Part shown: positions 5,520 through 51,914 of the stretch, piece by piece
How the letters are laid out: every line of letters begins with the position of its first letter
Position numbering within the stretch: the first letter of the stretch is position 1
Assembly (NCBI GenBank): GCA_013390785.1
Contig: JACASW010000004.1
Location: 1-64,000 of the forward strand
Length of the DNA stretch: 64,000 bases
DNA from: Marine Group I thaumarchaeote
Lineage (GTDB): Archaea > Thermoproteota > Nitrososphaeria > Nitrososphaerales > Nitrosopumilaceae
Direction of reading: 5' to 3'
The notes under the pieces: generated by a model
What the model was told of the DNA's origin: nothing
The model's input: only the letters and a program-made list of their open reading frames with translations
Database searches by the model: none
Translations under genes and position numbers: made by a program

Positions 5520-6512
5520 ATGATGTTTACTTCGTCTGATAACTTTAGCTTTTTGAAGATTCTTTCTTTTTTAAAGTCGCATAAATCAGAGTTTTTATCT
5601 GGGCAGGACATGAGTGATGTTCTGAAAATAAGTAGAGTAGCAGTATGGAAAGATATTAAAAAAATTCGTTCACTTGGATATAAAATTGAATCAAAACAAA
5701 ATCTTGGATATAGACTTGTGAATACAACAAAACTTCTTTTACCATGGGAGGTTACACAAAATTTGAATACTAAGTTTTTGGGAAAAAAAGTTTATTATTT
5801 CAACACAATAGATACAACACAAAATTTTGCAATGGAAATTGCAACTAGAAATAATATGAATGGTACAATTATCATTGCAAAAAAACAAACCGGCGGAAGA
5901 GGCAGAATGAAACGAAAATGGAAATCACCAGTAGGCGGGATTTGGATGTCGATAATAATTCATCCAAAATTTAGTGTTTCATCAACAACACTTGTGCCAA
6001 TTGCTATATCACTTGCATTATGTTTGGCAATTGAGAAAACATTAAAAATTAAACCAGAGTTAAAATGGCCGAATGATGTTACAATTAAGGGAAAAAAAGT
6101 CGCAGGCGTATTAGTTGATGCATCAATCATATCAAACGAAATTGAATATATGATCATTGGTGTAGGAATTAATTTTAAAATTAAACCAACTGAGTTAGCA
6201 AATATTATAAAGAAAACTCCAAATTTTTATGGTGTTACAACACTAGTAAAAAAAGATGAAAATTCATTACCATTACTTCATCAGTTTTTATATGAATTAG
6301 AAAATGTTTTTCAGATGATTGATTCAAAGCATACAGGAAAAATTGTAAATCAATGGACAAAAAGGTCATCTACGATTGGTAGAAATGTTTCAATTATAAC
6401 AGGAAATGGTAGCATAAATGGTAAGGCTATGAAAATAGATAATGATGGTGCGCTAATAATTTCTAAAGGTAAAAATATTGAAAAAATACTCGCTGGCGAT
6501 ATAATATACTGA
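5520..6512 (+). CDS. birA: Bifunctional biotin-protein ligase / biotin operon repressor
   Basis: BirA makes biotinyl-AMP and transfers biotin to a lysine of the biotin carboxyl carrier protein. The protein has 330 residues. An N-terminal HTH_11 domain (residues ~10-65, VLKISRVAVWKDIKKIRSLG) should bind DNA, so this is the repressor-type (class II) ligase. The catalytic biotin loop is GRGRMKRKWKSPVGG near residue 125, followed by LKWPNDV and KKVAGVLVD. A C-terminal SH3-like domain is seen from about residue 280 (GRNVSIITG...AGDII). A matching operator lies at 37401-37428 between bioA and bioB. ATG 5520 and ATG 5523 are both possible starts. Confidence 0.95.
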   Translation: MMFTSSDNFSFLKILSFLKSHKSEFLSGQDMSDVLKISRVAVWKDIKKIRSLGYKIESKQNLGYRLVNTTKLLLPWEVTQNLNTKFLGKKVYYFNTIDTTQNFAMEIATRNNMNGTIIIAKKQTGGRGRMKRKWKSPVGGIWMSIIIHPKFSVSSTTLVPIAISLALCLAIEKTLKIKPELKWPNDVTIKGKKVAGVLVDASIISNEIEYMIIGVGINFKIKPTELANIIKKTPNFYGVTTLVKKDENSLPLLHQFLYELENVFQMIDSKHTGKIVNQWTKRSSTIGRNVSIITGNGSINGKAMKIDNDGALIISKGKNIEKILAGDIIY

Positions 6513-35374: not shown

Positions 35375-37368
<1,994 letters not shown>

Positions 37369-37400
37369 TACTCGGTAACTACTATTAATTACTAAATAAT

Positions 37401-37428
37401 GTTAACCTGAAAAAATATGTTGGTTAAC
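37401..37428. promoter_or_regulatory. BirA-type biotin operator between bioA and bioB
   Basis: GTTAACC (37401-37407), a 14-base spacer, and GGTTAAC (37422-37428) form a perfect inverted repeat. This matches the known BirA signal with GTTAACC half-sites and a 14-15 base spacer. It is centred in the 91-base region between the divergent bioA (start 37368) and bioB (start 37460), directly upstream of the bioB TATA-like sequence. A BirA with an HTH domain is encoded at 5520-6512. Confidence 0.85.
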
Positions 37429-37437
37429 GCTTAATTA

Positions 37438-37447
37438 TGTATAAAAA
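37438..37447 (+). promoter_or_regulatory. Putative TATA box of bioB
   Basis: The sequence TGTATAAAAA follows the BirA operator by ten bases and lies 13-22 bases before ATG 37460. BirA bound at the operator would sit on the upstream BRE/TATA region and block TFB/TBP. Confidence 0.4.
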
Positions 37448-37459
37448 TTAAAAAAAATA

Positions 37460-38446
37460 ATGCATCAGAAACGTGATTTGATCTTAAAATGCCGTAACGA
37501 CGTTGTAAATGGCAAAAAAATAACTAATTCCAAAATATCTAAATTGTTTAACATTGACAATGAACTTCTTCTAGATTTATCAGATGCATCTAATCATATA
37601 ACAAGATATTTTCATGGATCAAAAGTTGATATTGAAGAATTAGCAAATATTAAAAAAAATTTTTGTAGTGAGGATTGTACATTTTGTTCACAATCAGCAT
37701 TTTTTAATACAAAAATCACTGGATATGAGCTTCCACCACCAGAAGAAATAGTTGAACAGGCACTAAATGCAAAAAATGATGGTGCTAGTTCATTTTGTCT
37801 TGTTGCTGCATGGAGGGAACCTAGCACACTTGATTTCAAAAAGGTATGTACAATTATTGAAGAGATTAATAAAAAAGTTGGAATTTCGGTTGAATGCAGT
37901 CTTGGGTTTTTGACTGACAAACAAGCTAAAACACTAAAAAAACTTCAAGTAAAACGATATAACCATAACCTGGAAACATCACGTAGCAAATTCCCAGAAA
38001 TTTGTACAACTCATACATATGATGATAGAGTAAAAACACTAAAAATCGCCAGAAGTGCTGGTTTAGAACTTTGCACAGGTGGGATAATCGGTCTTGGCGA
38101 AACCAGAAAACAGCGTGAAGAACTAATTTTTGAAATTTCAGAATTAGAGCCTGAAGAAGTTACTGTGAATATGTTGGTTCCAATGCCAGGAACACCATTA
38201 GAACTTCAAACACAATTAGATATTACAGAAATCTTGAGGGTGTTTAGTACACTAAGGTTTCTTTTACCAGAATCAATAATCAAAATTTCTGGTGGCCGTG
38301 AAGTTAACCTAAAAGACGATGGGCAAAAATTACTGCTTAGTGGGGCAAATGGAATAATTAGTGCTGGGTATCTAACAATGGGTGGAAATACAGTAAAAAA
38401 AGACGCCAAAATGATTAATGAGATAAATCTTGAAACGCAAGTTTGA
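37460..38446 (+). CDS. bioB: Biotin synthase (radical SAM)
   Basis: BioB inserts sulphur into dethiobiotin. The protein has 328 residues. The radical SAM cluster Cys are C69, C73 and C76 (CSEDCTFCSQS). YNHNLETSRSKFPEI near 172 and SGGREVNL near 275 are further BioB motifs. The end overlaps the bioF start by 17 bases, so translation is coupled. It is the first gene of the rightward biotin unit. Confidence 0.96.
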   Translation: MHQKRDLILKCRNDVVNGKKITNSKISKLFNIDNELLLDLSDASNHITRYFHGSKVDIEELANIKKNFCSEDCTFCSQSAFFNTKITGYELPPPEEIVEQALNAKNDGASSFCLVAAWREPSTLDFKKVCTIIEEINKKVGISVECSLGFLTDKQAKTLKKLQVKRYNHNLETSRSKFPEICTTHTYDDRVKTLKIARSAGLELCTGGIIGLGETRKQREELIFEISELEPEEVTVNMLVPMPGTPLELQTQLDITEILRVFSTLRFLLPESIIKISGGREVNLKDDGQKLLLSGANGIISAGYLTMGGNTVKKDAKMINEINLETQV

Positions 38447-39557
38447 ATATATTAATTCTGAATTAAAAGAAATTAAAAAAAATAACCTATATAGAAAAAT
38501 GCATGATAGTAAAATTACTGGCGCATACATAACCATTAATTCAAAAACTCTCATCAATCTATGTTCAAATGATTATTTGGGAATAACACAACCAAAACTT
38601 TCAAACAAACAAAACCAATCTAGTTCTCGCCTAGTTTCTGGTAATGATAGTTCATTTAGAATACTCGAAGAGAAATTAGCGAAACATAAATCACAAGAGC
38701 GTTCATTGATATTTCCAACTGGATATATGGCAAACCTTGGTGTTATATCATCAATTATCGGAAAAAATGATCTTGTATTAAGTGATAAGCTAAATCATGC
38801 TAGTCTTATTGAAGCATGTAAGCTAACAAATGCAAAATTATCAATTTTTAATCATAATGATATAAACGACTTGACCCATAAAATAAAAACTAATGCTAAA
38901 CGAAAATTCATAATCACAGAAGGAGTGTTTAGTATGGATGGTGATTTTTCAAATTTAAATATGATTACTAAAATATCTGAAAAAAATAATGCGATGGTTA
39001 TACTTGATGATGCACATGGTGACTTTGTTATGGGTACTGATGGTAAAGGTACAGCTAATCATTTTGGTCTTTCAAAAAAAATAGATGTTTACATCAGTAG
39101 TTTAAGTAAAGGATTAGGCTCATTTGGTGGATATGTTGCATCAAAGAAAAACATTATAGAATTATGCGTAAATAAATCAAAACCATTTATCTACACATCA
39201 GCACTACCAGAAATTCTAATTCATGATGCAACAAAAAAATTTGGAACAAAAAGAGAAAGAAATCGGAAAAAATTATGGAAAAATATTAAGAAATTTTCAA
39301 CCGGTTTAAAAAAAATGGGATTTGATGTTAATTCCAATTCACAAATTTTCCCCATAATAATTGGGAAAGAAAAAATAACACTGGAGTTTGGTAACTATCT
39401 TTTTAAAAATGGAATTTTTGCACAGCCAATAAGATATCCAACAGTACCACGAAATTATGCAAGAATTAGAATATCAATTACTGCCAGACTTACAAATGAG
39501 CATATTGAAAAATCACTGTCTGTACTAGAAGATGCAAAGAAAAAATTTCAAATATGA
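38430..39557 (+). CDS. bioF: 8-amino-7-oxononanoate synthase
   Basis: BioF condenses pimeloyl-CoA (or pimeloyl-ACP) with alanine. The protein has 375 residues of the alpha-oxoamine synthase family. LCSNDYLG near residue 40, LDDAHGDFVMG near 185 and the PLP Lys in SLSKGLGSFGGY near 222 are present. The extended start (38430) lies inside bioB; a start nearer the bioB stop is possible because conserved sequence begins about residue 20. No bioC, bioH or bioW is in the window, so the pimelate source is unknown. Confidence 0.94.
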   Translation: MKRKFEYINSELKEIKKNNLYRKMHDSKITGAYITINSKTLINLCSNDYLGITQPKLSNKQNQSSSRLVSGNDSSFRILEEKLAKHKSQERSLIFPTGYMANLGVISSIIGKNDLVLSDKLNHASLIEACKLTNAKLSIFNHNDINDLTHKIKTNAKRKFIITEGVFSMDGDFSNLNMITKISEKNNAMVILDDAHGDFVMGTDGKGTANHFGLSKKIDVYISSLSKGLGSFGGYVASKKNIIELCVNKSKPFIYTSALPEILIHDATKKFGTKRERNRKKLWKNIKKFSTGLKKMGFDVNSNSQIFPIIIGKEKITLEFGNYLFKNGIFAQPIRYPTVPRNYARIRISITARLTNEHIEKSLSVLEDAKKKFQI

Positions 39558-42868: not shown

Positions 42869-43861
42869 ATGGGTCATAGAAGACATAGTGCACCACGTAG
42901 AGGCAGTCTTGCATACCTACCTAGGGGTAGAGCTAAAAGTATGGAAGCTCGGATAAGAGCATGGCCTAAAGTTAACTCAGATGAACCAAAATTACTAGCA
43001 CATGCAGGATTCAAAGCTGGATGTGTACAGATAGTAAATATAGACGATCGTGAAAAAACACCAAACCATGGAAAACAACTTGTAAGCCTTGGTACAGTAA
43101 TTGTAACACCACCAGTCCTTATTGTTGGGATTAGAGGATATTCAAAAGATCCAAATGGTAAGCATGCAGAATTTGATCTTTATGCCGACAATTTACCAAA
43201 AAACATTTCTAAGTTATTCAAAAATAAAGACAAAGAAAGTTTGTTAGACTATGCAGAAAAATCAATTAAAAAAATTAAGGAGATTTATGCATTAATTGCT
43301 GTCATTCCTCAAAACGCTGGTTTAGGACAAAAAAAACCATATCTTTTTGAAGCGTCTGTAAAAGGTGGAGACATTAAAAAACAATTTGAATTTCTGAAAG
43401 AACTATTAGGTAAAGATGTAAAAATTGATCAAGTTTTTGAAGCTGGTGTAACTGTCGATACAGCTGCAATTACTAAAGGTAAAGGTTGGGAAGGTCCTAT
43501 TACAAGATGGGGTGTGAAAAGAAAACAACATAAATCAAGAAAAAGCGTCAGAGAAGTTGGTTCTCTCGGTCCAATATCTCCACAGTATGTAATGTATACT
43601 GTACCAAGAGCAGGTCAACGCGGCCTGCATCAAAGAATAGAATATGACAAAAAAATTATGGTTATGGATAATACTGAAAATATAAAATACAAAATAAATC
43701 CTACAGGTGGTTTCAAACACTTTGGAAATGTTAATGGAGATTTTATAATATTACGTGGGTCTGTACCTGGAACATATAATCGACTAATTAAATTAAGATC
43801 ACAAATACGTAATGCCCCTAAAAAAATAATTAAACCAAATATTTTAGAGGTGGTTGTTTAA
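42869..43861 (+). CDS. rpl3: Large-subunit ribosomal protein uL3
   Basis: The protein has 330 residues, archaeal length. It begins MGHRRHSAPRRGSLAYLPRG, and shows KGKGWEGPITRWGVKRKQHKS near residue 210 and the long basic W-finger loop expected near the peptidyl transferase centre. It is first in the r-protein operon and shares one base with rpl4. Confidence 0.98.
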   Translation: MGHRRHSAPRRGSLAYLPRGRAKSMEARIRAWPKVNSDEPKLLAHAGFKAGCVQIVNIDDREKTPNHGKQLVSLGTVIVTPPVLIVGIRGYSKDPNGKHAEFDLYADNLPKNISKLFKNKDKESLLDYAEKSIKKIKEIYALIAVIPQNAGLGQKKPYLFEASVKGGDIKKQFEFLKELLGKDVKIDQVFEAGVTVDTAAITKGKGWEGPITRWGVKRKQHKSRKSVREVGSLGPISPQYVMYTVPRAGQRGLHQRIEYDKKIMVMDNTENIKYKINPTGGFKHFGNVNGDFIILRGSVPGTYNRLIKLRSQIRNAPKKIIKPNILEVVV

Positions 43862-45842: not shown

Positions 45843-46637
45843 ATGACACAAGTAAAAAATGCAATTAAAGACAATTATAACATGATGCTTCTCAATGATT
45901 TTCTTAGAGAAGAGATTAAAGAATCTGGATTTCATAAAGTTGAAATTTCAAAGACACCTACTGGAACAAAGATTGCACTTTATGTTACAAGACCCGGAAT
46001 TGTTATAGGCAGAAAAGGATCAGGCATCAAACAACTAACAGAAAAAATTGAATCTGACTTTGGATTCAAAAATCCACAAATTTCAGTTGAAGAAATTCAA
46101 AAAGCAGAATTATCACCCAGTGTGATGTGCAACCGAATGGCAGCACATATTGAACGTGGAACAGCATTTAGAAGAGCTACTATGTGGACATTAAATCAAA
46201 TAATGGAAGGAGGTGCAATGGGTGTACAAATAACAGTTTCAGGAAAATTACGTGGTGACCGTTCTGCATTTGAAAAACATACACAGGGTATTCTTCCAAG
46301 AGCTGGTAACTATGCAAAAAACCTTGTATCAGAAGATATCACTCACACAAAAACTTCTATGGGATTAATAGGTATCAAGATCAGGATTGCAACGAAAGAA
46401 AAACTAATACCAGAATTTCAATTTAATAAATCATCAAAAACTGAAAAAGAAGAAATTGCAAAAACTGAAACAGAGCAAATAAAAACTGAAAAAGAAGAAA
46501 TTGCAAAAACTGAAACAGAGCAAATAAAAACTGAAAAAGAAGAAATTGCAAAAACTGAAACAGAGCAAATAAAAATAGAGGAAGAGAAAATGAAAACACT
46601 TGTAACTTTAGAGGAAGAAGAGGAGAAACTGAAATAA
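45843..46637 (+). CDS. rps3: Small-subunit ribosomal protein uS3 with repeat-rich tail
   Basis: The protein has 264 residues. The KH domain ([20 protein letters not shown]) lies near residue 50-70, and [20 protein letters not shown] near 120-140 is the S3 C domain. After about residue 195 it carries three perfect copies of a 15-residue unit ([15 protein letters not shown]) and an acidic end (LEEEEEKLK). The tail is not part of the conserved fold. Confidence 0.97.
46437..46571 (+). repeat. Three perfect 45-bp tandem repeats in rps3
   Basis: Units at 46437-46481, 46482-46526 and 46527-46571 are identical at the DNA level and keep frame (15 codons each). Identity at synonymous sites indicates recent expansion or gene conversion. 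Confidence 0.95.
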
Positions 46638-47683: not shown

Positions 47684-48163
47684 ATGAAACCAACTAAAAT
47701 GAGAAATAAGCAGATCTATCGAGCATTGAACCAAGTTGTAAATAAACAAATTTCTGCTCCATTATCAAAGGATCTACGCAAAAAATATTCACGACGTAGT
47801 GCTAGGATTATGGTAGATGATACAGTTAATGTAATACGTGGAGAATATAAGGGAATTAAAGGCAAAGTCAGTAAAATCTCAACTAATAACAGTAGTATTG
47901 CTATAGAAGGTAATAAAAAAGAAAAATTAAAGGGAGAAAAAATTGATGTCTATATTCATTCGTCAAATGTTATTATCACATCATTAAATACAAATGACAA
48001 ATGGCGCCTCAAAATATTAGAAAAAAAACCTAAGTCAAAAATTAAATCTATGAAAGCGGATGTTAAAAAGAAAGATGATGTTAAATCAGCAGCTAAAAAG
48101 AAAGATGATGTTAAATCAGCAGCTAAAAAGAAAGATGATGTTAAAAAGAGTGTGAAAAAATAA
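47684..48163 (+). CDS. rpl24: Large-subunit ribosomal protein uL24 with repeat-rich tail
   Basis: The protein has 159 residues. The KOW motif (DTVNVIRGEYKGIKGKVSKI) lies near residue 45-65. After residue ~115 it carries a lysine/aspartate tail of three KKKDDVKSAA-like units (last truncated). The tail is not conserved in the family and should be flexible. Confidence 0.95.
   Translation: MKPTKMRNKQIYRALNQVVNKQISAPLSKDLRKKYSRRSARIMVDDTVNVIRGEYKGIKGKVSKISTNNSSIAIEGNKKEKLKGEKIDVYIHSSNVIITSLNTNDKWRLKILEKKPKSKIKSMKADVKKKDDVKSAAKKKDDVKSAAKKKDDVKKSVKK
48065..48145 (+). repeat. 30-bp tandem repeats in rpl24 (two full, one partial)
   Basis: Copies at 48065-48094 and 48095-48124 are identical; the third (48125-48145) is truncated to 21 bases. 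Each unit encodes KKKDDVKSAA. Confidence 0.93.
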
Positions 48164-51294: not shown

Positions 51295-51635
51295 AAATTT
51301 TCAAAATAACCAGTTGTAGACAAATTTGCTGATTTGTGCGTAAATGCTCAACCCCACCTATATGTCAAGCCATTTACGAATAACGTGATTTTATCAAAAA
51401 CAGTGATTTTAGTGGGGGGTTTAACATTTGTTCCTAAATATACGATCCAATAGTAAAAACACCATGCTAGGTCATTTACAAACCGATCATCATTTTTTAC
51501 TAGGCATGAACATTCAACCCCCCTTTTTATCAAAAAAACATGATCGGACTTAGAAATTTTGTCAAAAAAAGACAGTAATTAAGCAAAAAGTGGTGACTGA
51601 CTTCACATAAAACACAATGTTTTAGGGTGAAATTA
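51295..51635. other. Long non-coding gap with repeated C/G tracts
   Basis: No convincing gene is visible. Three related tracts occur: TCAACCCCACC (about 51348), its inverted counterpart with six G followed by TTTAAC (51414-51424), and TTCAACCCCCC (51513-51523). TTTTATCAAAAA recurs near 51389 and 51525, each followed by CAxTGAT, and CATTTAC(G/A)AA recurs near 51371 and 51474. The repeats are imperfect. Confidence 0.6.
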
Positions 51636-51914
51636 ATGGCTATTTCAAAAGCAAAACGTAGTGCTGCAGCAAAAAAGGCAGCACGAACGAGAAAGCGAAA
51701 TGCTGCCGCTAAAGCTGCAAAGCGAAGTGCAGCAGCAAGACGTAGAAAACGCTCTGCCGGTAAGAAAAAAGGTGGCGGTAAGAGAAAAGCTGCTAAGAGA
51801 AAAGGTGGCGCTAAGAGAAAAGGTGGCGCTAAGAAGAGAAAAGCACCTAAGAGAAAAGGTGGCGCTAAGAGAAAAGCACCTAAGAGAAAAGCAGCTAAGA
51901 AACGAAGAAGATAA
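51636..51914 (+). CDS. Histone H1-like basic protein with Lys/Arg/Ala/Gly repeats
   Basis: About 92 residues from ATG 51636 (a GTG nine bases upstream is possible). Over half the residues are Lys or Arg. The first half is Ala-rich (AISKAKRSAAAKKAARTRKR) and the second repeats KRKGGA and KRKAP units. It resembles bacterial HC1/histone H1 tails and should coat DNA or RNA. It has codons similar to the surrounding genes. Chromatin role is inferred from composition. Confidence 0.78.
   Translation: MAISKAKRSAAAKKAARTRKRNAAAKAAKRSAAARRRKRSAGKKKGGGKRKAAKRKGGAKRKGGAKKRKAPKRKGGAKRKAPKRKAAKKRRR

Follow-up and report, generated by a model that had tools for sequence, protein, structure and literature searches.

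The window, by which we mean the whole 64,000-nucleotide stretch that was analysed, contains the genes bioA, bioD, bioB and a bioF-like gene, together with birA and the gene for ribosomal protein L3 (Table 1). bioD likely shares the bioA transcript, and the bioF-like gene likely shares the bioB transcript. The gap between bioA and bioB spans 91 bp (37369-37459), and within it positions 37401-37428 read GTTAACC TGAAAAAATATGTT GGTTAAC. The first-pass annotation had described this sequence as a perfect GTTAACC-N14-GGTTAAC repeat, located midway between the two genes and directly upstream of the bioB TATA-like element, in a window that also encodes a BirA with an HTH domain. Each of these details is borne out. 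The repeat is present exactly at this position, with 32 nt between it and the start of bioA and 31 nt between it and the start of bioB, and it adjoins a TATA-like element on the bioA side as well as on the bioB side. The HTH_11 domain of BirA scores above the Pfam cut-off and its recognition helix is intact.

Table 1. Genes of the window discussed here and parts of the candidate operator region
Feature	Coordinates	Strand	Remarks
birA	5520..6512	+	Winged helix (HTH_11), ligase core, C-terminal domain
bioD	35375..36061	-	TIGR00347 158 bits, cut-off 83; overlaps bioA end
bioA	36058..37368	-	TIGR00508 439 bits, cut-off 405; divergent from bioB
TATA-like box TTATTTAG for bioA	37392..37399	-	1-2 nt beyond left arm (predicted)
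Left operator arm GTTAACC	37401..37407	.	Conserved in genus
14-bp spacer	37408..37421	.	Differs among species, arms constant
Right operator arm GGTTAAC	37422..37428	.	Read from the sequence
TATA-like box CTTAATTA for bioB	37430..37437	+	2-3 nt past right arm (predicted)
bioB, biotin synthase	37460..38446	+	TIGR00433 374 bits, cut-off 225
bioF-like	38430..39557	+	TIGR00858 353 bits, below cut-off 426, yet best match; overlaps bioB end
Ribosomal protein L3, head of ribosomal cluster	42869..43861	+	Relatives carry operator here

There is only one perfect inverted repeat of at least 7 nt in the bioA-bioB gap, and it is the candidate operator; an imperfect, overlapping 9-nt palindrome is also found in this gap at 37383-37394. 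A scan of the window reveals no second copy with fewer than three mismatches, and the three other places with exactly three mismatches correspond to the chance level. This is also the sole exact copy in the assembly of the window organism, which comprises 949,320 bases in 26 contigs and is 82% complete. Under an order-3 model, the number of exact copies expected by chance is 0.0012 per genome and 8e-8 in the bioA-bioB gap.

The bacterial BirA consensus is TTGTAAACC-[N14/15]-GGTTTACAA (PMC545781), and the bacterial sites given in the available portion of that source also deviate at the outer bases. When compared with the core GTNAACC / GGTTNAC at a spacing of 14-15 bp, the window operator matches at 12 of 12 fixed positions with N14. 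Only one of the four outer TT...AA bases of the 9-bp bacterial arms is matched, since AT precedes the left arm and GC follows the right arm. We regard the archaeal form of the operator as defined by its core arms. The window operator resembles bacterial BirA operators in the inner seven arm bases except the third, in the 14/15-bp spacing, in its location in front of biotin genes, in the small number of sites per genome and in the presence of an HTH-bearing ligase. However, the outer TT/AA is largely absent, the third arm base is T on both sides, and the promoters are archaeal and TATA-like.

The centre of the TATA-like box is located approximately 26 nt before the ATG of bioB and approximately 27 nt before that of bioA. 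A distance of 26-27 nt between a TATA-like box and the start codon is the geometry expected for near-leaderless archaeal transcripts. Because only 1-3 bp separate each box from its arm, binding of a dimer should obstruct both the bioA and the bioB promoter. The bioB-side TATA-like stretch is common to all seven loci of the genus that were compared, and a TTATTTAG/TTATTAG-like stretch is found on the bioA side in six of the seven, the remaining locus (L008) having TTAATTA. A scan for sigma-70-type promoters near the operator gave a single match, which is at chance level, and was disregarded because the model is not archaeal.

One alternative is that the repeat has no regulatory role and is either an RNA hairpin or a product of chance. 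Its 7 complementary bases could pair around a 14-nt loop, but the operator lies upstream of the TATA-like boxes and so is probably untranscribed from these promoters. Moreover, several of the copies found in front of the L3 gene in relatives (see below) are altered in a single arm, with C opposite A, such that the pair is broken without compensation. With about 0.001 copies expected per genome, a chance repeat fares no better, and we consider this alternative scarcely credible.

In Escherichia coli, one operator between divergent bioA and bioBFCD serves both directions. The window likewise has a single operator between divergent bioA and bioB, but here the promoters are archaeal and lie as mirror images on either side of the operator. 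Most relatives lack the divergent orientation of bioA and bioB, and thus the arrangement seen in the genus probably arose separately.

The predicted BirA protein scores above each Pfam cut-off for HTH_11 (57.9 bits), BPL_LplA_LipB (78.9 bits) and BPL_C (35.4 bits). It passes the TIGR00121 cut-off, and it reaches 52 bits against the repressor-region model TIGR00122, which is below the cut-off of 70. The recognition helix, SRxA[VI], is intact (ISRVAVWK). Its nearest solved structures include full-length bifunctional BirA ligase/repressors such as 6apw and 1bia and, as for BirA of Bacillus subtilis, the window ligase belongs to Group II. No other protein with a BPL domain was found in the 82%-complete assembly. 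A search of the same assembly for a biotin-carrier protein gave none, which is probably due to its incompleteness. There is exactly one biotin-carrier match per genome in all eight relatives, four of which are from the same genus.

Of 300 genomes of the order that were searched, 211 have a BioB match, and 119 bioB regions were sampled from among the matches listed, with one locus (L215) left out of all counts. A strict score used 14 arm positions, a spacer of N14/15 and a threshold of 12. By this measure there are 79 representatives of the operator among the 119 bioB upstream regions, and there are none among the control upstream regions of bioF (0/118), SPOUT (0/64) and psmA (0/64). A relaxed score used 12 positions with the third arm base free, a spacer of N14-16 and a cut-off of 10. 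It places an operator at bioB in 90 of the 119 loci, with the caveat that its cut-offs (10/12, N16 permitted) were chosen after inspection of the data. Labelling genera and families g and f, the 29 misses fall in g4 (12), g7 (5), g8 (2), g15 (2) and f8 (4), with one each in g11, g13, g14 and g19. The window's genus has the operator by the relaxed score in all four further bioB loci. Similarly, all eight named relatives (L003-L010, among which L003-L008 are from the window's genus) score 13-14 of 14, and L004 and L006 are probably the same records as G290 and G265. In g7, pairwise identity of the bioB sites is 0.96-0.97 in the arms and 0.44 (N14) or 0.38 (N15) in the spacers. Thus, the conservation in front of bio genes of relatives that had been put forward as a check on the operator is found across the order.

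Four g2 loci (L113, L119, L127 and L155) have a 16-bp spacer in the bioB operator, which falls outside the N14/15 rule. Matches to the exact pattern, at places that were unlisted, are also found in four f8 genomes (G022, G056, G086 and G152). The possibility that the operator is avoided elsewhere in genomes was considered and rejected: a reversed control matched more often, but the order-3 model explains this difference (0.08 versus 0.65 expected per Mb).

The presence of the bioB site depends on the state of the BirA helix. An alignment of BirA was obtained for 97 of 101 BPL loci, and the other four gave no aligned protein. A bioB site is present in 52 of 72 genomes whose helix is intact, including G278 as a weak case at 10/12, and in none of the 10 whose helix is lost or decayed. 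A tree of 82 genomes built from BioB and the catalytic part of BirA has 7 changes of helix state. Its supported branches yield five independent pairs; on average 4.5 of them agree, with no pair opposed (sign test, p 0.06). Among the 20 helix-intact genomes without a bioB site, four have an N16 site and 13 have a site in front of L3. One (G275) has neither a bioB nor an L3 site, and the remaining two (G192 and G208) fall outside the L3 comparison.

There is also a match between the type of helix and the bases of the arms. At least one GTTAAC arm is found in all 34 site-bearing genomes with an SRVA-type BirA, whereas such an arm is found in only one of 18 site-bearing genomes with other helix types, which use GTAAAC, GTGAAC and similar arms. 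This correspondence goes back to about one change on the tree; it agrees with binding by BirA and is weak as a test. In family f2, an SREA BirA (L280, L352 and L353) pairs with the unusual bioB operator GTGAACC-N14-GGTTCAC (L206, L213 and L214), and the operators of SREA-type genomes in this family alternatively have one GTAAACC arm.

Computation shows the site and how it is conserved, that the helix is intact, that helix and site disappear together, and that the recognition-helix residue corresponds to the arm base. On these comparisons, the proposal of a bacterial-style BirA operator gains support, both from the conservation of the bioB site and from the dependence of the site on the BirA helix, and 37401-37428 is very probably the BirA operator of the biotin genes.

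For the window operator, we infer BirA binding, the ligand, repression and the start sites as follows. BirA would produce biotinyl-5'-AMP. Once the one carboxylase has a carrier protein that bears biotin, BirA would retain biotinyl-5'-AMP and dimerise, and the two winged helices of the dimer might then grip GTTAACC and GGTTAAC. The bound dimer would lie over the TFB element and the TATA edge of both mirror-image promoters, such that bioA-bioD and bioB-bioF could be shut off together. Binding of the loaded dimer when the carrier is saturated is proposed by analogy with B. subtilis BirA, and repression is suggested by the overlap with TATA and by bacterial precedent. The B. subtilis protein has three operators that it binds only with biotin and ATP, according to the available portion of PMC4016012.

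In many relatives a second copy of the operator is located some 5-12 kb away, directly upstream of the gene for ribosomal protein L3. It is seen in L043, L045, L046, L048, L050, L053, L058 and L066 (site at 1501). There are 54 representatives in the 54 L3 regions examined from g3, g4, g7 and g12, and there are none in the nine regions from other genera in the same comparison. A further set of 29 L3 loci was reduced to 26 because three had no recognisable start, and a thirtieth locus (L267) was read separately. Among these 26, the operator is found in G235 (g14) and in G123 (g7, already counted). The L3 score of L194 was excluded as an artefact of a match at the end of the locus. The genera g3, g4, g7, g12 and g14 make up a single clade (SH-aLRT 88, or 98 without g14), and therefore a single gain of the L3 site suffices. 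G278, which is filed under g7, is located outside this clade on a long branch. We take G093 to be Nitrosopumilus maritimus, on which basis g7 would be Nitrosopumilus, and g4 is presumably Nitrosarchaeum.

As observed for bioB, the arms of the L3 sites are far more alike (0.96 identical) than the spacers (0.51). A search of 33 whole genomes with the relaxed pattern gave 42 places in 32 genomes, comprising 24 at bioB and 18 at L3, and none elsewhere, including none at the biotin-carrier gene. Upstream of L3 in the window genome there is no operator and only a degenerate right half, GGTCAAC. The L3 promoters of g2 (L240, L242, L243 and L244) contain a 12-13/14 near-match that has an N15 spacer and surrounds the TATA-like box. 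At L3 of several other genera there is only the right half (GGGGTTAAC or GGGGTTTAC), just past the TATA.

Twelve genomes of genus g4 have kept the helix and have no bioB site, and the L3 site is found in all 11 that were examined. L3 is the only place matching the relaxed pattern in eight of eight g4 genomes. In addition, the helix core of g4 BirA is 0.97 identical versus 0.87 for the catalytic part. A helix this tightly kept in the absence of a bioB site requires a target, for which L3 is the sole candidate found.

It must nevertheless be asked whether the palindrome at both bioB and L3 is bound by an unrelated transcription factor rather than by BirA. The location of L3 outside biotin metabolism would fit such a factor, as would the presence of an L3 site without a bioB site in g4 and in G235. 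However, the BirA helix and the bioB site are lost together (0/10), the arm base tracks the type of BirA helix, and the motif with its N14/15 spacing is that of bacterial BirA sites. Moreover, a search of five genomes for a second strong HTH_11 protein gave none, with birA at 51-62 bits and the next best match at 28. An unrelated factor therefore seems very unlikely.

A narrower version of this idea is that the bioB site belongs to BirA and the L3 site is a look-alike that serves another regulator. The L3 site may have been gained only once, and no L3-site genome with a lost helix was seen, so helix loss is uninformative on this point. The L3 spacers also have an AT-rich core, in which spacer positions 7-10 are about 0.8 conserved. 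Set against this, the arms and the N14 spacing are the same as at bioB, the distance to TATA is near-identical, and an SRVA helix is present in all L3-site genomes with an aligned BirA. The retention of the helix core in g4 without a bioB site indicates that the helix is still used. We regard a look-alike as doubtful, and in this sister clade the operator preceding the L3 operon is likely bound by BirA as well. Perhaps BirA in this clade is wired to the L3 promoter, such that biotinylation of the single carbon-fixing carboxylase helps to set ribosome synthesis and BirA of g4, with L3 as its last remaining target, has turned from a vitamin repressor into a growth regulator. We give this last proposal an even chance.

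The position of the TATA-like box relative to the operator varies among the groups. At bioB, the box is located 3 nt from the arm in all four loci of the window's genus (g1), begins 13-14 nt beyond the arm in 42 of 47 loci of the L3-site clade, and falls within the operator spacer in families f2, f3 and f8. At L3 the interval from the arm to the box is 15-16 nt in all 54 regions, with a motif frame that differs by about one base from that at bioB. The three placements are spaced by roughly one and two helical turns, and they may reflect a constraint on the helix face.

These distances also bear on the possibility that BirA binds as an activator, in which case the dimer could recruit TBP/TFB. 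In most genera TATA follows the site after some 13-16 bp, a spacing at which archaeal activators are located, and TATA is clear of the site both at bioB (42/47) and at L3 (54/54). A ribosomal operon is also a more natural target for activation when supply is good. However, the operator adjoins TATA in all four loci of the window's genus, the TATA-like stretch within the spacer in f2, f3 and f8 fits blocking, and bacterial BirAs are repressors. Activation thus seems unlikely, and repression is the reading that we prefer.

Rodionov, Mironov and Gelfand reportedly described in 2002 a BirA with an HTH domain and a conserved signal in front of archaeal biotin genes, and are said to have noted that loss of the HTH accompanies loss of the site. 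Their study is said to predate thaumarchaeal genomes and to name no ribosomal target. The window operator is thus not new in kind, an archaeal BirA signal having reportedly been proposed at that time. What a specialist would find surprising is the L3 operator, which could not be seen by a reader of the window. B. subtilis BirA targets biotin synthesis and transport, whereas in the archaea there is one biotin target, plus a ribosomal operon in the sister clade.

The available portions of PMC545781, PMC4016012 and PMC3199775 cite Rodionov et al. 2002, and both the bacterial consensus and the proposal of an ancient regulator trace to that work. The occurrence of BirA in bacteria and archaea is described in the part of PMC3199775 that was available, where this proposal is cited. 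The bio genes of N. gargensis have been studied, in work whose accessible text refers to BirA as regulating the pathway of the E. coli type (PMC6138646). Literature searches, which took in few subscription papers, list no title or start of an abstract that reports a thaumarchaeal BirA operator or a BirA site at a ribosomal gene.

The proposed system would be a bacterial-type vitamin feedback switch in archaea with TATA promoters, traceable base by base across many genera, and natural losses of either half (helix or site) are available across these genera. The L3-site clade, which belongs among the most abundant marine archaea, makes it possible to test directly whether ribosome production is governed by the state of a single cofactor-loaded carboxylase.

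The window also contains several repeat-bearing genes. In a gene resembling that of ribosomal protein S3, 3.1 perfect 45-bp repeats make up a C-terminal extension (46435-46575). A gene of the ribosomal cluster at 47684-48163, which is L24-like as judged by its place, has a lysine-rich tail encoded by 2.7 perfect 30-bp repeats (48064-48145). Finally, an ORF at 51627-51914 with repeats of 15-54 bp encodes 95 amino acids that are nearly all K, R, A and G, and its product resembles a basic protein that binds DNA or RNA.
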